A DNA stretch of 64,000 nt, taken from positions 1 to 64,000 of the forward strand of contig JAFGIN010000027.1 in assembly GCA_016929595.1 (NCBI GenBank), written 5' to 3'. The translations under genes and the position numbers were made by a program. Origin of the DNA: Chitinispirillaceae bacterium. GTDB taxonomy: Bacteria > Fibrobacterota > Chitinivibrionia > Chitinivibrionales > Chitinispirillaceae. Of the stretch, positions 3,723-31,713 are shown piece by piece (the first letter of the stretch is position 1; every line of letters begins with the position of its first letter). The notes beneath the pieces are model-generated. The model was not told the origin of the DNA. It did no database searches and saw nothing but the letters and a program-made list of their open reading frames with translations.

Positions 3723-6713
3723 CTACTCCCCCATCCTCGCCCACCCGCGATGCGTCCTGATATACGTATCATTGGTACTAGTCCGAACATAATGAGTGCC
3801 GATCGGTGCTTCGATCATTGCGCTGTCCGGATTGACAATTCCTTTTAGAATCTGTGGTAAAGCGGATAATGCGTAGGGTGATGCTGTAAATGGCACCTTC
3901 CTATCGAGAGTTTCGAAATTGCCCCCAATCGAGGCGATACTGAATGAGATAAAAATATTTGGATAGGTACGCACTATATCTGCGAGGTTATCATCCGTTT
4001 TTCCAGTTCCAAGATGAATCGCGAATTTCCCATCCTTTACTGCAATAGCCTGATTGTTTGTATCAATGAATGTTTCTGTATAAATAGCACTGTCTGAGGT
4101 TACCGATGCATACAGCCGGACAATAAAATTCATTCTGGTTTCATCCTGAATTCCAACCCTGATATTCCTGCTGGTTAACAAATCGCCTGTTATGATAACC
4201 GTCTGGCTTGATGGACGACGTACCGTCAGGAGTGCATTGCGACTTTGCATACCGGCTATATTGTTTGTTACCATACAATAATAATTTTTCCCGTTATCGA
4301 CTATACCAACCGGACCTGTTTTATAAACAGAATCGGTTGCACCGGAAATAGCAACACCGTTACAAAACCACTGGAAAGTAAATGGTGCCGTACCAGTTAC
4401 AGTGATGTTGAGCTCAGCAGAGTCACCTTCAGCAAGAATTTGTGCCTGTGGGTGCCTGATAATAATTGGCGCTTCAGGCCGTAACGTTACAGATAATAGT
4501 GCGCTGCCCGAAGTGTCCTGCCCGACACTATTGATAACTATACAGTCAAAGCTTGCTCCGCTATCGGCAAGAGTTACAAAGGGAATCGAATATAACCCTG
4601 AACCTGCTCCTGTTGGAATACCATTTCTGCGCCACTGATAGGTGAAGGGCGGCGATCCGGTTACCGAAATGCTGAATGTTGCAGGATCTCCCTCAAGAAC
4701 AGAAATATTCGCCGGATTTGCAGTAATTTGTGGCGGATACTTCTGATCATTATCGGTAATTTGAATAATCGCACTATCATTCCCTCCAATACGATACGTT
4801 GTATCCGGCATAATAAATACACCGACAACCTCATCCCCCTCATCAAGAGTATCCTCTACGGGAGTAAAATATATCGGTACCGTTACATGTGTAGATTCTG
4901 CAGCTAACAACAGATTTACAGAACCGGGAAGAGGATCAAAATCTGTTATGCTTTGAGCATTGCCAAAAGAGCCAAGATTAACAGATAGAGATATCGGTGA
5001 TGGTTGTGGAGCTGCAACTGAAAGTAATACATTAACGACGTGTGTTGTAATCGATGTTTCAGCGACAGCTGGAACAAGTTGAGTCAATGACAGTAATGGG
5101 AGATCACAGACATCTTCAATAGAGAGCCACGATGTTCCGGTTTTGCTGCTTTCATAAGAAAGCTTTATCCAATCTGATGTGAATGCATTATGTGCAACAG
5201 AGACTTCATCGATCTGCCCATTGAACCTCTGACTCGAAGGTGCATCAGGCCAGTTTGTTAAATTACCGTACCCGATTCGCCAGTACCCGGAATAATTCTG
5301 GGCAGATGAGACAGAATTACTTGCAACCGTTACACCATCAACATACAACTTCATGCCAGTCGAAAACAGCCGGCCGGTAACCTGATGCCATACTCCATCG
5401 TTATATGTTGCTGTGGAAGCAAGTACATTGTAAGTTCCATTGTAGATACCGAAATAGATTTTTCCACTATTATCCATATATATATGTTTATCGTAACTGG
5501 TACTTGCACCGGTTTGCATATTTCCAAACCCGACAATTCTGCCGCCCTGATTGGTGGTCGTTTTAAACCAGGCAGATATGGTAAGTCTTGTTATGTTGCT
5601 ATACTGCTTTGCTGAAGATATATGATCATCAACGCCATCGAATTCGAGCCCTTTTCCGATCACTCCATTAATGAGATCTGAAGAATTCATCCCACCCTGC
5701 GCTGTTCCATTATTGCCAGCACCAGACGCATCAGAAAATTGCGGGGCGCTTGTTGAAGGGTTTTCTGAACAGTGCCAAACACCTTTGAAACCATTCGACG
5801 TATCAAAAACTCCGTTTCCGGATGATCGGGAAACAGCATCCGCTTTTCCCCAGAACATTTCAATATACTGGGCACTGTTATTTCCGTATACCGTATCTAT
5901 CTTTACCCAGATCTGGGCTTGCTGCGAAAGTGAATCCCATTGCTCTATCTGGTAATAAAGATGTGTTCCGTCCGGTTTCGCAAACCGTATATCAGCACCA
6001 TCCCCCCGAGCTGTATTAAATTGAAAGTTTTCAGTATTCAATCGAATTAGCGCCTGAAAATTTGTAACATTACTGCTCACTGCTGCACCACTTGAAGTCG
6101 TATTTAAATGGATTTCAGCAGATCTGCTCCATAACGAGTAGTCATCATCATCAAGAACCGGGGAGAGCCTTGATGCTGGTATCGGCCGCTCATAGGTTGA
6201 ACCGGGCAATTGCCATCCAACAGCAAGATTATCATTTGAAGTCCCTTCTTTATGTAATGCCTCGATGTAATATCTTTTCCCGGCTTCAAGATGTATCGCT
6301 CCTGATTGCTGAGTTGTATAGGTGGTCCATGCCCGCGATGCGGTATACCCCTCATGCCAGGCAATCACCTGTTTGTTCGCCTGCTTGTCATCTGTAGATA
6401 ACCACAACTCACAATGATCATCACCTGCAATCCAGAAGATATAATTACCAGTCTCCGGCGGATGTACAAACCCCCGGATTCTTGTTCCGTAATTATCATT
6501 CCAGTTCGTTGGAGCTTCAAAATAGTCGGTAAGATAGGTTTTTTCTGTCGGATTAGAAGGAAAATTCGTATTATCTGTCAGTGTTGAAATGGTAATTCCG
6601 CTTATATCATTCCAGCATTCACGAAGAATAGAACCAGTCTGAGACTGACACAGTGAATAAAAAATCGCAATACCCATAAACACGGCGTCTTTAAAACGCA
6701 ATCGAATATTCAT
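3723..6713 (-). CDS. Secreted PA14-DUF2341-LamG-Calx-beta-Ig surface protein
   Basis: Predicted exported, carbohydrate- or matrix-binding surface protein of about 996 residues. The ATG at 6713 is preferred to an upstream frame start at 6809 because GGGAGA precedes it and a signal peptide (VFMGIAIFYSLCQS) follows. Visible order: a PA14-like domain (about 25-190, with FVHPPETGNYIFWIAGDD), a DUF2341 domain (about 200-320), a LamG/concanavalin-type domain (about 320-510), a Calx-beta-like repeat (about 540-660, containing DEGDEV), two Ig-like domains (about 665-830, each with a TYQW or TFQW core), and the ~150-residue C-terminal module shared with the downstream neighbour (ITGDL, TASPYAL, NPDS, API-GT, GWARMGE). 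PA14 and LamG domains usually bind glycans. It is tandem with the preceding surface protein but 370 bases of repeat DNA separate them. Catalysis is not indicated. Confidence 0.85.
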   Translation of the reverse strand: MNIRLRFKDAVFMGIAIFYSLCQSQTGSILRECWNDISGITISTLTDNTNFPSNPTEKTYLTDYFEAPTNWNDNYGTRIRGFVHPPETGNYIFWIAGDDHCELWLSTDDKQANKQVIAWHEGYTASRAWTTYTTQQSGAIHLEAGKRYYIEALHKEGTSNDNLAVGWQLPGSTYERPIPASRLSPVLDDDDYSLWSRSAEIHLNTTSSGAAVSSNVTNFQALIRLNTENFQFNTARGDGADIRFAKPDGTHLYYQIEQWDSLSQQAQIWVKIDTVYGNNSAQYIEMFWGKADAVSRSSGNGVFDTSNGFKGVWHCSENPSTSAPQFSDASGAGNNGTAQGGMNSSDLINGVIGKGLEFDGVDDHISSAKQYSNITRLTISAWFKTTTNQGGRIVGFGNMQTGASTSYDKHIYMDNSGKIYFGIYNGTYNVLASTATYNDGVWHQVTGRLFSTGMKLYVDGVTVASNSVSSAQNYSGYWRIGYGNLTNWPDAPSSQRFNGQIDEVSVAHNAFTSDWIKLSYESSKTGTSWLSIEDVCDLPLLSLTQLVPAVAETSITTHVVNVLLSVAAPQPSPISLSVNLGSFGNAQSITDFDPLPGSVNLLLAAESTHVTVPIYFTPVEDTLDEGDEVVGVFIMPDTTYRIGGNDSAIIQITDNDQKYPPQITANPANISVLEGDPATFSISVTGSPPFTYQWRRNGIPTGAGSGLYSIPFVTLADSGASFDCIVINSVGQDTSGSALLSVTLRPEAPIIIRHPQAQILAEGDSAELNITVTGTAPFTFQWFCNGVAISGATDSVYKTGPVGIVDNGKNYYCMVTNNIAGMQSRNALLTVRRPSSQTVIITGDLLTSRNIRVGIQDETRMNFIVRLYASVTSDSAIYTETFIDTNNQAIAVKDGKFAIHLGTGKTDDNLADIVRTYPNIFISFSIASIGGNFETLDRKVPFTASPYALSALPQILKGIVNPDSAMIEAPIGTHYVRTSTNDTYIRTHRGWARMGE

Positions 6714-7126
6714 CAATTCTCCCTTAATAGAAGAGTACTTTTTATTATCGCCTGAAATGATATATTTGTGTAATACGGTTGCCATCTTGTTGTATGATAA
6801 CAAAACCACGTATCATTCTAGCTTTGACACAAAGACAATATATATTATGTTTATTAAAATGTAATTAAAAAATCTGTTTTGGTAACACTTTTTAAAAAGG
6901 CCATTAAATATCAACATCTATGGGTACAAAAGTAAATTTATATAGTATATAATATGGTACTACCAGGTCTGGCAAAGATTCGTAACGCCTATGGCAGCAC
7001 TCTTTTATATTTTCAATGGCAGTGCATCAGATATGAACAGGAAATGGAATGAACTAACAAAACACCAATACTATTTTCGTAACTATTCAGGTACATTGAC
7101 ACCAATATTTACGGGGCCACTAGTGT

Positions 7127-7272: not shown

Positions 7273-7573
7273 CTCTGATTTTTTACCACCATACATTTTA
7301 ACACGTTCTTCATAAAAAAACTTTTCCTGATCAACATGAGCGGTGTTTCTCAGGTAAAATTTAAGCATTTTGCCGCTCACATCGCTTGTCGATGTATCAT
7401 TTCCCATCTCTTTAGAGCAGACTCAACCATATTTTTCTTTTAACCCTAACCTTTTCTATATTGGACTGCTGGAAAGCTCCCATGATGTTACCAATTATAG
7501 CAGCCAATAATATATTCGAAATCATAATTTACCTTTTTTCAAAAGGTTACGACTGATTTTACAGAGAGAGTAT

Positions 7574-7589
7574 GTACTCAATACAGTAC
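7574..7589. promoter_or_regulatory. Inverted repeat upstream of the TIGR02147 gene
   Basis: GTACT-N6-AGTAC sits 65 bases upstream of the start of the TIGR02147 gene. Its size and placement suit an operator for a dimeric HTH protein. This is inference from symmetry only; the other TIGR02147 gene in the window has different candidate sites. Confidence 0.3.
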
Positions 7590-7653
7590 AAAAAATGATG
7601 TTAAAATTAAAAATTTCCATTTAAATGTTTAATTATCCTTATATTGTCCGTAT

Positions 7654-8511
7654 ATGCAATCAATAGAATTTTACACCGATTATCGCCAGTTTCTTCAGGA
7701 CTACTACACCTGGAAAAAGGAGTCTTCGCGCTATTTTTCCTATCGGCAGTTTACAATCAAAGCAGGACTGAACTCGCCATCGATCTACCGTGAAGTTGTT
7801 GCCGGGAAACGTAATCTTACCATTCAGACAATCGCATCATTCATAAAAGGCCTTGGGCTCAACGAGCGAGATGGTCGATTCTTCGAAAACCTTGTTCTCT
7901 TTAATCAGGCAAAAAGTGAAGAATCTAAAAAGAAGTACTTGTCGGTTCTCAGAGGGTTGCGCTACAGGAAACCTCAGAAGCAGATACCGGTACACTTGTA
8001 TGAGTACTATGAAAAATGGTATAATCCTGTTATTCGTGAGCTTGCGGTCTCATTAGACTGGAAAGATGATTATTCGCTGTTAGCGCGTTCTGTAAATCCG
8101 TCGATAAAGGCATCCCAGGCGCGTGAAAGTGTTGAGTTTTTGCTCAGCCTTGGCTTTCTTAAGAAAAATTTTGACGGGACATACGAACAGACAAACCCTG
8201 ATATAACCACTGGTTCAGAAGTCAATTCTCTTGCGGTCAGAGCATTAAACCGCGAATATGCACGACTTGGTGTTGAATCAATCGACCGGTTTCCACCATC
8301 ACAACGGGACGTTTCAAGCGTGATTATGGCGATACCAAGGAAAAAGTTGTCTGATTTCAAACGCGAAATTGTTGACTTCAGAAAAAAACTTATCACCCTT
8401 GCCGGCGATACAGACCTTAAAGCTGATTGTTATTATTCTCTTGTTGTGGAATTTTTTCCGGTTGGTCAATCATCCCCAGCATCAAAGGATCTAAATGAAA
8501 CGGTTGATTGA
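7654..8511 (+). CDS. TIGR02147 family HTH/DUF4423 protein
   Basis: A 285-residue cytoplasmic protein of the TIGR02147/DUF4423 family, paralogues of which are numerous in Fibrobacter and whose role is not established. The N-terminus (about 5-75) has the family hallmark FYTDYRQFLQDYY followed by an XRE-like helix-turn-helix (SYRQFTIKAGLNSPSIYREVVAGKRNLT). The rest is the helical DUF4423 region containing the YEKWYNPVIRELAV element. There is no signal peptide or membrane segment. The start has no obvious Shine-Dalgarno sequence. The 3' end overlaps the next gene by 17 bases, so the two are probably co-translated. A paralogue with the same arrangement lies at 30877-31713. Expected to be a DNA-binding regulator controlling or responding to the coupled surface protein; that link is inference. 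Confidence 0.9.
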   Translation: MQSIEFYTDYRQFLQDYYTWKKESSRYFSYRQFTIKAGLNSPSIYREVVAGKRNLTIQTIASFIKGLGLNERDGRFFENLVLFNQAKSEESKKKYLSVLRGLRYRKPQKQIPVHLYEYYEKWYNPVIRELAVSLDWKDDYSLLARSVNPSIKASQARESVEFLLSLGFLKKNFDGTYEQTNPDITTGSEVNSLAVRALNREYARLGVESIDRFPPSQRDVSSVIMAIPRKKLSDFKREIVDFRKKLITLAGDTDLKADCYYSLVVEFFPVGQSSPASKDLNETVD

Positions 8512-10129
8512 TGTATTTGTGACTGGATGTATGTTTTTCTGTTTTTGCACAAATGGAGATTCTCCTTTGAGCGGAACCAGCGAACAAGGCAATGCCCGCG
8601 TTGCAGCGACAATCTGTAATCCTGATTTGAGCCCATCAATCGGAACAAGTGTTACCTTACGAAGAAGTGATTATATTGCAAACACAGCACAATCAATTCC
8701 AGATGCGCGAATCTACAGAGACGCTGTTACGGGATCTGATGGCTCATTCATTATTGATTCAGTTGACACAGGCTCCTATTTTATAGAAGTAAACGATCAT
8801 ATCGCAAACGCAGTATTATTGAAATGTTCGATCACAACATCAGATACATTTGTCGCATTTGGAAAAGATACCCTCCAGCCATATTCTATAGTCAAGGGCA
8901 AAGCACCATCTGTATCACCTGATAAAAAATACTCCGTTAAGATTGATGGTCTGGAACGATTTTACGAAGTTAATCCTGACGGATCATTCAGTGCACCCGA
9001 TCTTCCCCGGGGTACATTTACATTCAGGATAACAGATCAGACTTCCACTGAAAAGCCGCATATAATACCGGATATTACTACGCAACCGGGAATGCTGACA
9101 ATACTTCCCGGTAACGGATGGCTCTTTTTCAAACCGGTATACCTTAACACAACCTCAACAGGAGCGGCTATCACCAGTAATCTGTATCGGTTTCCGGTTC
9201 TCATCCGCCTCAACAGTTCGAACTTTCCATTCAATGAAGCCAAAATTGACGGTAGCGACATCCGTTTTATCAAGACCGGACCTGATTCAACCCAGTTAAC
9301 ATTTGAAATTGAACGATGGGACGCTATGAACAATCAGGCTGAAATCTGGGTCACCTTTGATACCATTTACGGTAATTCTGATAAAAAGATGTGTATCATG
9401 CAATGGGGGAATCCGGATGCTGCCGAAGGTGTGTCTGCCGGAACAGCCTTTGATACTGCTGATGGATTCGGAGCGGTTCTGCACCTTTCCGATAACATAA
9501 CTGCTGCGGATGCTACACCGAACAGGTTCAACGGACAGCCCTCCAATATTGAAAAAATCAGGGGTATGGTCGGCAATGCCGGAGGATTTTCCGTTATAAA
9601 CAAGAGCCATATCAGTATCGAAAACTCAGCGGGCGGCACGCTTAACTTCCCGCAAAACGGATCCTATACCATTTCAGCCTGGATCAACGCCGACAGTACT
9701 GCCAGCAATCGGGTCATTATCGGCAAAGGAGACCTTCAGTATTATCTCAGGATTCACAATCTTAACTGGCATTTTGCAGAATATCATGATACACCCTCAA
9801 AAGGTTGGGAATTTACTTCATCACCCTATTCATTCGGAAAATGGGTCTATGTATGTGGCGTTCGCGATGGAACTTCGCAGTACCTTTATGTAGACGGGGT
9901 ATGTGTTGATAGCAGCAAAACCCTTATGGGTGACAGTGATGGTACCCGCACCGATACTTTTGATATCGATATCGGAAGGAAATTACAGTCTGACGGGACT
10001 GCAAATCTTCATTTTTCCGGGGGAATTGACGAAGTCAGAATATGTACAACAGCAAGAAATGCCGAATGGATAAAACTAAGCTACAGTAACCAATGCAACG
10101 ATAACAATCTGGTAAAATTCGATAATTGA
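8495..10129 (+). CDS. DUF2341/LamG surface (lipo)protein coupled to TIGR02147
   Basis: A 544-residue exported protein whose ATG lies inside the end of the TIGR02147 gene, preceded by AAAGGA. The hydrophobic N-terminus has several Cys residues (12, 16, 18), so lipoprotein processing is possible, but no canonical lipobox is present. A carboxypeptidase-regulatory-like beta-sandwich follows (about 30-110, with GSFIIDSVDTGSYFIEV) and a second, similar segment at about 130-180. A DUF2341 domain spans about 205-325 (FPVLIRLNSSNFPFNEA, EIWVTFDTIYGN). The C-terminal third is a LamG/concanavalin-type lectin fold (SAWINAD, DEVRI). It has the same domain order as the gene at 29216-30880. Family knowledge suggests glycan binding at the surface. 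A pectin methylesterase follows 214 bases downstream on the same strand. Confidence 0.85.
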   Translation: MKRLIDVFVTGCMFFCFCTNGDSPLSGTSEQGNARVAATICNPDLSPSIGTSVTLRRSDYIANTAQSIPDARIYRDAVTGSDGSFIIDSVDTGSYFIEVNDHIANAVLLKCSITTSDTFVAFGKDTLQPYSIVKGKAPSVSPDKKYSVKIDGLERFYEVNPDGSFSAPDLPRGTFTFRITDQTSTEKPHIIPDITTQPGMLTILPGNGWLFFKPVYLNTTSTGAAITSNLYRFPVLIRLNSSNFPFNEAKIDGSDIRFIKTGPDSTQLTFEIERWDAMNNQAEIWVTFDTIYGNSDKKMCIMQWGNPDAAEGVSAGTAFDTADGFGAVLHLSDNITAADATPNRFNGQPSNIEKIRGMVGNAGGFSVINKSHISIENSAGGTLNFPQNGSYTISAWINADSTASNRVIIGKGDLQYYLRIHNLNWHFAEYHDTPSKGWEFTSSPYSFGKWVYVCGVRDGTSQYLYVDGVCVDSSKTLMGDSDGTRTDTFDIDIGRKLQSDGTANLHFSGGIDEVRICTTARNAEWIKLSYSNQCNDNNLVKFDN

Positions 10130-10131
10130 TA

Positions 10132-10207
10132 CCTGTTCAGAATTGAGTAAATTTTCCGCACATCGTTATCTTGCCAACTGATAGTGCGGAAATTCACTCT
10201 GAACAGG
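10132..10207. promoter_or_regulatory. Large imperfect hairpin between surface protein and pectinesterase genes
   Basis: CCTGTTCAGA (10132-10141) pairs exactly with TCTGAACAGG (10198-10207), and inside it TTCCGCAC (10154-10161) pairs with GTGCGGAA (10184-10191), leaving a 22-base loop and a six-base asymmetric bulge. No U-run follows, so a classical terminator is less likely than an RNA stability or processing element, or an operator for the pectinesterase gene 140 bases further on. Confidence 0.5.
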
Positions 10208-10343
10208 ATATTGATTAGTCAAAACGGAGAATACATTGTGAGATTAGAGCACCCGAAGAATACAATTATTATTTACGAGTCTCAGTCAATGAACGTTTTT
10301 CCATATCTCAGGTAGTAATTTTTTCAATAAAAGGAGAAAAACA

Positions 10344-11867
10344 ATGTTCAGAAATAAAAAAACCTTCTTTTTTTCCGGAATACTTTATTTACTCTCTCTA
10401 TTTACAATAGAAACAGAAGCTGTTATTAAAAAAAAAGTGTTCGATTTTGTTGTCGGAGTCGATGGTGATTTCAAAGCGGCGATGGCTGCTGCTGCCAAAT
10501 CGGCATCTTCAAGTAACCGTTTTTTCCTCTTTTTTCCCAGTGGGCAATATAATATCGGAAAACTTACGGGTGATGCAAACGAGGTTACAACTTTTGCTAC
10601 ATCAAATGTATCTTTTATCGGTGAAAATGCTGATAGTACTGTCATTTTTAATAAAGCAATCAATGAAGGGATCAGTATCACTTCAACACTTTATTTTAAA
10701 AACGCCAGCAATCTCTATCTTCAGGATCTCTCAATTTTAAACAAAGCAAATTTCCAGAATGGCGCGAATTTGAATGTGACGGGAAGATATGTTGCAGTCA
10801 GGGAACAGGGAGATAAATTAATTTACAAAAACGTGAAACTCCTGAGTACGCAGGATACGTATTACACCCAGGGTAAACGCACATACTGGGAAAATGGTGA
10901 GATTCATGGATCTGTAGATTTTATATGCGGCCAGGGTGACGTTTTTTTTAATAAGTGTCTTCTATACCTTGAGAGGGATAAAAGTTGCATCACAGCTCCG
11001 GCGACAAAGAGCTCCTGGGGGTATGTATTTATGAATTGTACCATCGATGGGACCGGAAGTAACCACATGCTTGGCCGCTCCTGGAGCAACACACCCCGAT
11101 GTGTTTATATTAACACAACAATGAAAAAATTACCTACAGCAGCAGCCTGGGGAGATCCGATGAATGTTGTGCCCTCACTGTTTGCAGAATATAACAGTAA
11201 AACAGCATCAGGCTCGAAGGTTGATCTGAGTAAACGACGCACATCATATTCAAAAAATGGGGCGAGTGCAACAATAAAGCCGGTTTTAACTGAAGCCCAG
11301 GCAGCTGAGTATACGATAGCCAACGTGCTCAAAGGCAGCGACAACTGGCAACCAGAGAAGTATACAAAGCAGATACCGGCCCCCACTCTACGCAACTCCG
11401 GTTCAGCACTCAAGTGGGATGACAACGAGAACGCCCTGTGCTGGGTCGTTTTTAAAGATAAGAAGTTTTATAAATGTGTCAAAGTAAATAATTGTGATAT
11501 AACCCCGGATGCAAAAGTAAAATATTATGTCCGCGCTGCAAATGAAATGGGTGGATTAGGCCCGGCTTCAAATACGGTTGACGGTATTACCACTGCTATC
11601 GAATATGTGCATAAATTCTCACCCCATAAAATCAGACCAATTGTTGATTATTCACAAAGAAGGCTCAGTTTTGACGTTTCTTCAATAAAAAGCCTCAACA
11701 TTGCCCTGTTTAGGCTCAATGGTACACCTGTTGTTTCAAAAAGCTTCGATAACATTTCGGAAAATTCAAAACTCGAAATTCCCATGGATGGGTTCAGCAG
11801 TGGCACATACCTTTTTAAAACTGACTATGAGGGTACTAAAAAATCCGGATATGTACATATACGGTAG
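10344..11867 (+). CDS. Secreted pectin methylesterase (CE8) with C-terminal secretion tail
   Basis: Hydrolyses methyl esters of homogalacturonan, releasing methanol and exposing pectate for lyases. The 507-residue product starts at an ATG preceded by AAGGAG and has a signal peptide (residues 1-26). The CE8 right-handed beta-helix covers about 30-330. The catalytic signatures are visible: Gln170-Asp171 in QDTYY, Asp192 in GSVDFICG, and Arg245/Trp247 in GRSW. A short fibronectin-like segment lies at about 345-415. The last ~75 residues (LFRLNGTPVVSKSF, GTYLFKTDYEG, YVHIR) match the pattern of type IX secretion sorting domains, so surface display or release by T9SS is expected. It follows the TIGR02147/DUF2341 pair, which suggests joint use or control in pectin breakdown. 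The partner lyase is at 26845-29133. Confidence 0.92.
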   Translation: MFRNKKTFFFSGILYLLSLFTIETEAVIKKKVFDFVVGVDGDFKAAMAAAAKSASSSNRFFLFFPSGQYNIGKLTGDANEVTTFATSNVSFIGENADSTVIFNKAINEGISITSTLYFKNASNLYLQDLSILNKANFQNGANLNVTGRYVAVREQGDKLIYKNVKLLSTQDTYYTQGKRTYWENGEIHGSVDFICGQGDVFFNKCLLYLERDKSCITAPATKSSWGYVFMNCTIDGTGSNHMLGRSWSNTPRCVYINTTMKKLPTAAAWGDPMNVVPSLFAEYNSKTASGSKVDLSKRRTSYSKNGASATIKPVLTEAQAAEYTIANVLKGSDNWQPEKYTKQIPAPTLRNSGSALKWDDNENALCWVVFKDKKFYKCVKVNNCDITPDAKVKYYVRAANEMGGLGPASNTVDGITTAIEYVHKFSPHKIRPIVDYSQRRLSFDVSSIKSLNIALFRLNGTPVVSKSFDNISENSKLEIPMDGFSSGTYLFKTDYEGTKKSGYVHIR

Positions 11868-29215: not shown

Positions 29216-30880
29216 TCACCGATTTCTCTCAAAAGAAACAGCGTTCTGGTTTTCCCGCTGCGTATGGTAACTTGCCTTAATCCATGGATCAGACAATTGC
29301 CTGTCATAAACTCTGAACTCATCGAGCACTCCTGAGAACCAGCCGGTATCTTGTGGCAGACACCCAAGACGAAGCACTGATGCAAGCACGTTTCCGATCC
29401 CATCGGAACTTTCCTGCGAAAAGGTACCTGCAAGGGAATCATTGACATAAATATAGTGTGATGAGCCTTTTCTTACGGCACTGATCAGTGACCATGTGTT
29501 ATAAGCGACAGGGGAAAAGCAGGTATCCATCTCTCCATTGGGTGTCAATCCGTATACCCCCCATCCTTTTTCCTTATCAATTAAAAGACCGTAATATCCG
29601 TTTTGCAGGCTGAAAACACCCTGGCTTCCTGTATTTTTATCGGATGATGGTTTTACCCATATAGTAAATGCAAATGAAGCATTTTCAGCATCAGAGTTAG
29701 TATTGCTTTCCAAAAAATTAAACTCGATGCGTTGAGAATCCTCTTCAAATTCCTGCGAACGTCCGATAATGCCGAAAATATCGTTTGCCCCATCCATTTC
29801 AGCAGGTATCCCACCGATATTATTTACGGTCGCATCAGCTTGCTCAGTACCTCCTGACTTGCCCAGATGCCATACACCTTTGTAACCGTAAGCCGTATCA
29901 AAAACCGTGGTGGGACTTGAAACTGATGATGCTTTCTGATTACCCCAGTAACAATAAAGCGTATGTTGCGGTTTACTTCCTGTAAGAGTATCGATCAGAA
30001 TCCAGATTGCAGCAAAGGAATTTGTGCTATCCCACCATTCAGTTTCAAAAGGAACAGGACGACCACGAGCGTTAACAACCCTTAAATCGGTGCCATTTTT
30101 CTTTGCAGTTGAGAAGTCAAAATTGGTAGCATCAAGTCTCAGTAGAAGAGGAAAATTGATAAGCGTCTCTGATTGTTCAAGCCCGGCAGCCTGACTGTTT
30201 ATTGTCAACACTCCATTATGATTCCACTCTGAAAACAACCCGATTCTGACAGTATCATTCGATTTAATTGTCACTGAATCAAGATCCTGGGGTTCTATTG
30301 ATGGATCCATGGAAAAAATACGGAAAGCATACTTTGCTGGCGGAAGGTCGGTAATAGAGTATCGCCCGGATTGCGAGTCGACAGGAGCCAGACGTTCCAT
30401 TCCATAGACCTGAACGGAATACCTGACATTTTTTGAAAGAAGAGCAGCATCCAGCACACCATTTACAACACCGACTGGTTCAGTATTCAGTACTCCTATG
30501 TTTTGTAAGTCGCCATTATCGATTCGACTCCTGACAACAACCCCCTGCTTTAAGATCGTATCCAGTACTTCAATAGTATAATTCCCTGCAATCAAATCGG
30601 AAACAATTACCGATCCATCCACACCTGTAAATGTATCCAGAACAGAACCAGTGCCATCAGCATCAGTAATGTTTCCTGAAGATGAGCAGTAATCATTAAA
30701 ACGGATGCGGACAGTTGCATTTTGAACGGCAGTACCGTCAGCATATTTGACCATTGCAGTAAAGCCATTCGTTGTAGTTGAACCCGAACCCCCGGCAATC
30801 TGCTGAGTGCAGGTTGTATGTAGTACAAAAACAAGTAGAAGAACCGATATTAATTTACTATACATATTTTTTATCTTCAT
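29216..30880 (-). CDS. DUF2341/LamG surface (lipo)protein, second copy
   Basis: A 554-residue paralogue of the gene at 8495-10129, with the same order: signal peptide (SVLLLVFVLHTTC; Cys24-25 region is a possible lipidation site without a perfect lipobox), carboxypeptidase-regulatory-like domain (about 40-110, VIVSDLIAGNYTIEV), a second short beta-sandwich (about 150-190, YSITDLPPAKYAFRI), DUF2341 (about 225-340) and a LamG-type lectin fold to the end (FTIWVKP, LDEFRVYDR). The true ATG at 30880 overlaps the TIGR02147 stop in the four-base ATGA form, so the pair is translationally coupled. A longer frame reaching 30964 runs inside the upstream gene and is rejected. The pectate lyase follows. 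Confidence 0.87.
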   Translation of the reverse strand: MKIKNMYSKLISVLLLVFVLHTTCTQQIAGGSGSTTTNGFTAMVKYADGTAVQNATVRIRFNDYCSSSGNITDADGTGSVLDTFTGVDGSVIVSDLIAGNYTIEVLDTILKQGVVVRSRIDNGDLQNIGVLNTEPVGVVNGVLDAALLSKNVRYSVQVYGMERLAPVDSQSGRYSITDLPPAKYAFRIFSMDPSIEPQDLDSVTIKSNDTVRIGLFSEWNHNGVLTINSQAAGLEQSETLINFPLLLRLDATNFDFSTAKKNGTDLRVVNARGRPVPFETEWWDSTNSFAAIWILIDTLTGSKPQHTLYCYWGNQKASSVSSPTTVFDTAYGYKGVWHLGKSGGTEQADATVNNIGGIPAEMDGANDIFGIIGRSQEFEEDSQRIEFNFLESNTNSDAENASFAFTIWVKPSSDKNTGSQGVFSLQNGYYGLLIDKEKGWGVYGLTPNGEMDTCFSPVAYNTWSLISAVRKGSSHYIYVNDSLAGTFSQESSDGIGNVLASVLRLGCLPQDTGWFSGVLDEFRVYDRQLSDPWIKASYHTQRENQNAVSFERNR

Positions 30881-31713
30881 GGTTGTTGATCTGCGTTTAT
30901 GATGGTTTTTGATACAGGAAACAGTTGCAGGTTTACCTGAAATGCCCTGTCTACAGAGTGGCATGATGCTGCAATTTCAATGATCTCTCTTCGCAAGTCA
31001 GCAAGTGCCTCCCGGATACGGTTTACGCCTTCATTGTTAAGCGAAACTGTCACCGTAGAGATATCCCTTTCATCTTTTGGAACAGAATCAATAGCACTTG
31101 CTGCAAGGCTGCACGCCTCCTTTTGAAACGATCGTACCGCAATTGACTTCCATTTTTCACCTGTCGTGACAAAACGATCACTTAACCGGTAATGACCATT
31201 TTCATCCGGAATAACCATACCAAGATTACAAAGAATCTTTACCGCTTTTTTTGCTTCTGAAATTGAAATTGGAGGGTGAACAGTTTCTGAAAGCATTTGA
31301 TAATCATCTTTAAATTTAACAATATTCAGTATTTCACGAACAGCAGTATAATACCAGTGTTGATAAAATTCATAATGGGCAGAGTCAATCTGTTTTTCTG
31401 AAATTTCGCTGAAAGCAAGAATCTTTTCGAAATATAATTTTCGTTCCTCATTGTTTTTTGCTTTGCCGAAAGTTACAAGCAGCATGAAATATTCCTTCTG
31501 GCGAACACTCAAACCAAGAAACGATGCAACACACTCTGCTTTTCCGTTACTTACATGCCTCTTTCCCTGCAATATTTTTAAAACCAGGGCATGATCCACA
31601 CCAATTTTTCCGGCAATATACCGATAAGAATAATTCGAATTCTGTGCTTTCTTCTCATCATAGAAATCTTTGATATACTTCCGGTAATCATAATAGGTAT
31701 AAATTGATCTCAC
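30877..31713 (-). CDS. TIGR02147 family HTH/DUF4423 protein, second copy
   Basis: A 278-residue paralogue of the 7654-8511 product. The N-terminal signature YTYYDYRKYIKDFYDEKK is followed by an XRE-like helix-turn-helix (SYRYIAGKIGVDHALVLKIL, then QGKRHVS), and then the DUF4423 region (HYEFYQHWYYTAVREILN). There is no membrane segment. The start codon is GTG at 31713 with only a weak ribosome site, as in the other copy. Coupled by ATGA to the DUF2341 lipoprotein gene. The upstream region holds repeated GGTGACA motifs that are candidate operators. Function unassigned; a regulator of the linked surface and pectin genes is the working inference. Confidence 0.9.
   Translation of the reverse strand: MRSIYTYYDYRKYIKDFYDEKKAQNSNYSYRYIAGKIGVDHALVLKILQGKRHVSNGKAECVASFLGLSVRQKEYFMLLVTFGKAKNNEERKLYFEKILAFSEISEKQIDSAHYEFYQHWYYTAVREILNIVKFKDDYQMLSETVHPPISISEAKKAVKILCNLGMVIPDENGHYRLSDRFVTTGEKWKSIAVRSFQKEACSLAASAIDSVPKDERDISTVTVSLNNEGVNRIREALADLRREIIEIAASCHSVDRAFQVNLQLFPVSKTIINADQQP

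Follow-up and report, generated by a model that had tools for sequence, protein, structure and literature searches.

A recurrent pair of a TIGR02147 protein and a tagged exported protein in Fibrobacterota and Bdellovibrionota

Small autoregulators heading an operon are known from restriction-modification systems, among them the controller proteins C.BclI and C.AhdI, and in Bacteroidota a short motif after the lipobox cysteine serves as a lipoprotein export signal. No system known to us links a family of cytoplasmic proteins of the DNA-binding type to a tag carried by exported proteins. The nearest described system is that of Streptomyces, where, according to the abstracts, the XRE-type regulator WhiJ and its BldB/DUF397 partner form many paralogous pairs per genome (PMC10294661, PMC10364602) and WhiJ9 binds direct repeats in its own intergenic region (PMC10294661). 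Here we describe the family TIGR02147 (Fsuc_second; Pfam DUF4423, PF14394) and the exported proteins encoded next to its members, with a pair found in a stretch of 64,000 nucleotides (nt) of contig JAFGIN010000027.1 from a Chitinispirillaceae bacterium of the Fibrobacterota (assembly GCA_016929595.1), hereafter called the window. As with WhiJ, a helix-turn-helix (HTH) regulator occurs in many copies, each of them beside a partner gene, but the DUF397 partners are small proteins for which those abstracts describe no export, whereas TIGR02147 partners possess a signal peptide and extracellular domains that are large and variable; DUF397 gave no match in the window partner and is absent from the families listed for 50 partners. 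Our preferred reading, to which we give a probability of about 0.38, is that the pair is a self-regulating two-gene control unit in which the cytoplasmic regulator would read a tag on its partner before the latter is exported.

An earlier note on this DNA had placed here a TIGR02147 protein and a DUF2341/LamG surface protein, overlapping by 17 nt, followed by a CE8 pectinesterase; the coordinates of the three open reading frames (ORFs) and of the overlap proved exact, and all three families were confirmed by scores. The TIGR02147 protein reaches 260.4 bits against the TIGR02147 model (cut-off 50; model positions 1-269 of 272) and 93.9 bits against DUF4423 (cut-off 30), making it a member by curated score of a family whose entry is a paralog model without function. 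The middle protein exceeds the curated cut-offs of DUF2341 (38.5 bits) and Laminin_G_3 (74.2 bits) and carries a lipobox (Cys18), a feature added here, which makes it a predicted lipoprotein. No sigma factor or membrane anti-sigma factor domain of the FecIR type was detected with Pfam in the window pair. A type II toxin-antitoxin system was rejected, as the partner is an exported protein of 544 aa with LamG and DUF2341 domains rather than a small cytoplasmic toxin.

TIGR02147 matches number 54 in this genome, all but a few of them full length, and the partner was defined as the next ORF on the same strand, which could be assessed for 53 genes. An ORF starts no more than 60 nt after the TIGR02147 gene in 50/53 cases and a lipobox-like N-terminus is present in 46/53, compared with 12/196 when the same procedure was applied to other genes of the genome. 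Elsewhere in Fibrobacterota, a lipobox partner was found for 57 of 58 assessable TIGR02147 genes from many families of the phylum, a number in which the independent pairs are nearer 27 because about half of the 58 come from closely related Fibrobacter genomes. TIGR02147 and an exported protein thus form a fixed recurrent unit, beyond chance, as the earlier note had supposed for the HTH protein and its exported neighbour, and the neighbourhood survey in Fibrobacterota proposed there shows neighbours that are not random. Its further suggestion of a fixed stoichiometry of the two proteins does not hold, as gene overlap does not imply it. Overlapping or abutting genes are found in 35 of the 50 close pairs, most commonly with a 4-nt overlap (21 pairs), and the 17-nt overlap of the window pair is not special among them.

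Deviating loci are few. In C160 the lipoprotein gene lies 373 nt from its TIGR02147 gene, and a few others are likewise farther off; the gap in C160 (L074:4530-4901) is open frame and includes PYPILPPLTGEG, apparently an inserted repeat. In C76 and C149 the TIGR02147 gene is followed by one coding for an exported transglutaminase/TPR-like protein of 955-965 aa (L080:2367-5231, L037:3641-6535), C12 is a TIGR02147 gene without a partner and C113 is a truncated copy.

TIGR02147 is present in 130/137 Fibrobacterota genomes, where a first look gave as many as 88 candidates in a single genome, and in 131/144 Bdellovibrionota genomes; no member was found on the plasmids searched. The alignment of 51 members contains no stretch conserved enough to scan the genome collection, and the Bdellovibrionota sample consists of 98 loci from genomes reached via a Bdellovibrio 16S signature. 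Five Bdellovibrionota loci (L185, L186, L187, L188 and L190) encode a group of longer TIGR02147 proteins with open frames of 318-404 aa, downstream of which no exported partner was found; this group may reveal the role of the regulator without a partner.

The partners in this genome are diverse, with a CarboxypepD_reg-type match in 36/50, LamG in 19/50 and DUF2341 in 18/50, as well as LRR, Kelch and transglutaminase-like domains. LamG and DUF2341 were accordingly rejected as the defining feature, and the description of the partner by these two domains in the earlier note was too narrow, the partner being defined instead by a lipobox or signal peptide together with an N-terminal tag. This tag, common to most partners, follows the signal peptide and reads roughly G-[TS]-[ED]-x-[GT]-N-[GPA], as in LSGTSEQGNA of the window protein and AGTETTNG, AGGSEIGNP and AGTVTDTGNT of other partners; the lipobox cysteine is invariant in an alignment of 18 partners. 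In the AlphaFold model of the window lipoprotein the tag lies in or beside a low-confidence N-terminal stretch (residues 11-31 below 50) that joins the signal peptide to the first strand and is presumably flexible, as expected of a linear motif. The third codon bases vary within the tag, so selection acts at the protein level, and on the same ground the idea of an element of the DNA or RNA within the coding sequence was rejected.

The tag was then scored in Bdellovibrionota with a seven-residue matrix trained on Fibrobacterota only, the former serving as a held-out test. A signal-peptide-like N-terminus is present in 65 partners, and the scores of 43 of these lie above the 95% level of shuffled sequences (3 expected) and those of 32 above the 99% level (less than one expected), with tags such as GTDTGNP, GTEVGNG, GGEIGNA, GVDVGNG and GFEIGNG. 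Many of these tagged partners are not lipoproteins and many are small, and the tag stands at a variable distance, whether or not the protein that bears it has a lipobox. In L239, L240, L244 and L268 it is repeated in tandem, with two to three copies near the N-terminus (e.g., GTEVGNGGP...GTEVGNGGP and STGGGNKRRSTGGGNKYSTGGGNGG). The tag is therefore present in partners from two phyla.

Distances between TIGR02147 proteins were compared with distances between the 11-residue tag regions by the Mantel procedure. In this genome the tag covaries with TIGR02147 (r=0.32, p=0.002), while the signal peptide (0.02) and the next 80 aa (0.07) do not; the tag correlation is 0.40 in Fibrobacterota and 0.50 in Bdellovibrionota and, in both phyla, remains significant once the next 80 aa are taken into account. 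An HTH regulator adjoining an exported protein with a conserved short motif, in some partners in tandem, could also recall the RRNPP peptide receptors (e.g., PrgX), in which such a regulator is linked to an exported product, and a released fragment of the partner carrying the tag might be imported again and bind TIGR02147 as a peptide signal. This is very improbable: no TPR receptor domain was found in TIGR02147 with Pfam, the Foldseek match to PrgX is weak (probability no higher than 0.20), and the conserved element lies here in the mature protein and not in the signal peptide, which does not covary with the regulator.

The AlphaFold model of the window TIGR02147 protein has a mean predicted local distance difference test score (pLDDT) of 91 and a predicted TM-score (pTM) of 0.73. 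A profile of 51 paralogs searched against PDB matched C.BclI at positions 22-71 (E=0.0037), Foldseek related the HTH to C.BclI and C.AhdI with a probability of 0.98, and the second part of the model was related with a probability of 0.97 to 4g6q, which we take to be a winged-helix structure; the Foldseek search with the model gave no match at E<0.001 and no significant full-length structural relative. TIGR02147 is thus modelled as an XRE-type HTH followed by a winged-helix-like part and C-terminal helices, and differs from the controller proteins, its best HTH match, in these additional parts and in an unrelated partner.

In the regions upstream of the paralogs, an exact TATATTA occurs within the last 40 nt in 14/53 (0.9 expected from mononucleotide shuffles), and palindromes are enriched at -120..-60, where 14/52 reach p<=0.05 (about 2.6 expected; 2 to 8 in other windows), their sequences varying from paralog to paralog. 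These sequence features support putative DNA binding and autoregulation by TIGR02147 at paralog-specific sites. Among the Fibrobacter promoters (L088-L113), the subfamily with the tag TDTGNT shares GTGTTCCCAAAAAA and the subfamily with the tag TEAEST shares AGTGTGGACTTTT; promoter boxes tied to tag subfamilies suggest cross-regulation among paralogs. The palindrome before the window pair is itself a candidate operator only, since another palindrome in the same upstream region outscores it. Quite unlikely, given the canonical length of the XRE-type HTH, the winged helix and the promoter palindromes, all of which point to DNA, is that TIGR02147 serves as a secretion pilot or chaperone delivering the nascent tagged partner, with an HTH that contacts protein or RNA, even though the obligate neighbour, the translational overlap and the covariation with the tag would suit such a role.

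Whether the tag occurs beyond the partners was addressed in 1.16 Mb of this genome. Within 760 kb around TIGR02147 genes a strong tag was found in 23/285 signal-peptide-like ORFs, all of them partners (23/23), and in 400 kb without TIGR02147 in 0/112 such ORFs; as the threshold is strict, weaker tags are missed among partners and non-partners alike. When the N-terminus of the partners was searched as a profile against the whole genome, it matched the tag-bearing part in partners, the other matches covering the downstream domain only. In the part of this genome that was sampled, the strong tag is hence restricted to partners of TIGR02147. This disfavours a general lipoprotein sorting signal, the tag being found on non-lipoproteins but on none of the other exported ORFs sampled. 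Unlike the Bacteroidota export signal, it consists of other residues, is found also on proteins without a lipobox and, in the sampled genome, is confined to the partners of one regulator family.

The main alternative to tag reading by TIGR02147 is that the latter is a plain local autoregulator, as the upstream palindromes would suggest, that the pair is duplicated as a unit, and that a common export, processing or anchoring machine reads the tag. One tag across all paralogs would suit one shared reader, and so would its location near the lipid anchor or the signal-peptide cleavage site. This explanation is possible but doubtful: such a machine would have to read a tag standing at variable distances on proteins with and without a lipobox and not found on the other exported proteins sampled, and duplication of the unit alone predicts a covariation of the following domain that is not seen in this genome.

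According to the preferred reading of a self-regulating unit, the TIGR02147 regulator would bind its own operator before the pair and so control it, and the overlapping genes would let both proteins be made together. The function proper, the binding of glycans or other targets, would lie with the variable outer domains of the partner, the mature N-terminus of which would bear the short tag; being close to the N-terminus, the tag would leave the ribosome early, and it is probably flexible and can be repeated. The regulator would recognise the tag while the partner is still cytoplasmic and would thereby sense the amount of partner inside; once the partner is exported, the tag would be gone from the compartment of the regulator, and synthesis would be matched to export, protein by protein. 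That the two meet before export is the simplest reading, since it is the exported tag that tracks a cytoplasmic regulator; that the regulator physically reads the tag, and that export feeds back on synthesis in this way, is what we infer. In general terms, TIGR02147 proteins of both phyla may tentatively be regarded as cytoplasmic readers of a dedicated linear tag, with each surface protein under its own independent, export-coupled feedback circuit and dozens of such circuits in a cell.

Several observations weigh against this reading. The strict tag threshold is passed by 26/50 close partners of this genome and a looser one by 33/50, and the two transglutaminase/TPR-like partners have neither lipobox nor tag. 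In Bdellovibrionota the next 80 aa covary with TIGR02147 even more than the tag does, and common descent of the pairs can contribute in part to the covariation. Column-level coupling between TIGR02147 and the tag is diffuse and scattered, with no pocket singled out, and was not taken as evidence of a contact site. Palindromes are significant in only part of the paralogs, and the set from other genomes shows a second peak at -240..-150 beside a weaker one at -120..-60. Pairing is loose in B. bacteriovorus, where a tag-like partner accompanies about 3/10 of the TIGR02147 genes in the 400 kb that were sampled, and some TIGR02147 genes of Bdellovibrionota are solitary.

The pectinesterase gene of the window lies 214 nt beyond the pair and has its own ribosome-binding-like site, with an inverted repeat, not followed by a T run, in between (Table 1). 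Its product exceeds the curated cut-off of PF01095 (83.1 bits) and contains the motifs VDFI.G and LGR.W as GSVDFICG and LGRSWS. The gene next to the pair varies from locus to locus in this genome, standing on the same strand in 34/46 cases and on the opposite strand in 12/46, and the pectinesterase, which the earlier note had listed with the pair, was rejected as part of the unit. Polysaccharide-related products are encoded by at least about 8-10 of the 34 same-strand next genes (three GH43, two glucuronyl-esterase-like proteins, a pectinesterase, a pectate lyase, a GH116 and an acetyl- or feruloyl-esterase-like protein), compared with at least one, a carbohydrate-binding protein, among 40 random genes, so that polysaccharide enzymes beside pairs seem enriched, as a tendency and not a rule. 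SusC and SusD are not among the Pfam families listed for the window pair, the partners or the next genes. This tendency and the frequency of LamG or DUF2341 in partners would favour the substrate-responsive module proposed earlier, in which the regulator would turn on a degrading enzyme such as the pectinesterase once the surface lectin has sensed a polysaccharide. Such a module is nevertheless unlikely: most next genes are unrelated, 12/46 lie on the other strand, the pair lacks a part for transmembrane signalling, the partners in Bdellovibrionota are in many cases small, and the sequence gives no sign of pectin sensing. Divergent from the pair, the window also encodes a 1028-aa protein (3723-6809, minus strand; PA14, DUF2341, LamG and two Ig domains) that has the DUF2341-LamG combination in common with the partner lipoprotein and is not preceded by a TIGR02147 gene among the listed ORFs.

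Table 1 Coordinates of the features of the window
Feature	Position	Strand	Basis or remark
Candidate operator TGTACT-N6-AGTACA	7573..7590	.	Direct reading; ~65 nt 5' of start codon
Candidate -10 box TATATT	7640..7645	+	8 nt 5' of TIGR02147 start codon
TIGR02147/DUF4423 protein, predicted cytoplasmic regulator, 285 aa	7654-8511	+	Pfam and TIGR02147 scores, AlphaFold
XRE-type HTH, residues ~21-72 of TIGR02147 protein	7714..7869	+	Profile match, Foldseek
DUF4423 region, residues 106-270: winged-helix-like part and C-terminal helices	7969..8463	+	PF14394, Foldseek
Overlap of TIGR02147 gene and lipoprotein gene, 17 nt	8495-8511	+	ORF coordinates
Predicted exported lipoprotein, 544 aa; CarboxypepD_reg-like, DUF2341, LamG	8495-10129	+	Pfam, AlphaFold
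Signal peptide, residues 1-17 of lipoprotein	8495..8545	+	Lipobox pattern
Lipobox Cys18 codon of lipoprotein	8546-8548	+	Lipobox pattern
N-terminal tag TSEQGNA, lipoprotein residues 28-34	8576..8596	+	Motif score 18.2
Inverted repeat TTCCGCAC...GTGCGGAA, between pair and pectinesterase gene	10154-10191	.	Direct reading
Ribosome-binding-like site AAGGAG of pectinesterase gene	10331-10336	.	
CE8 pectinesterase, 507 aa; neighbour outside the recurrent unit	10344-11867	+	PF01095
Partner lipoprotein of second TIGR02147 gene, tag GSTTTNG, 4-nt overlap	29216-30880	-	
Second TIGR02147 gene of the window	30877-31707	-	282 bits

In the open literature searched, neither the tagged exported partner nor the reach of TIGR02147 into Bdellovibrionota was found, and no mention of TIGR02147 either, subscription literature, in which the adjacency may have been noticed earlier, lying outside the search; DUF4423 appears there as a table entry for a Bdellovibrio protein. 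Four lipoproteins of F. succinogenes with carboxypeptidase regulatory-like domains (FSU_2817, FSU_1088, FSU_2134 and FSU_0627), measured in the envelope and lower on cellulose (PMC6851124, Table 3), may be TIGR02147 partners.

Should the tag prove to be an ordinary envelope signal, the finding would reduce to autoregulated surface-protein operons in a variant form. Fibrobacterota carry TIGR02147 as a very large family of paralogs, and it is also widespread among the Bdellovibrionota, some of which are predators, but it has been without a function; the near-obligate tagged partner turns it into a testable system, the exported members of which are predicted by a seven-residue signature. The pairing and the shared tag point to an undescribed control of individual surface proteins, and the pair system may explain how these bacteria manage their large sets of such proteins. 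If true, the proposed mechanism would represent a new principle, in which a DNA-binding protein is devoted to a protein destined for export from the cytoplasm.

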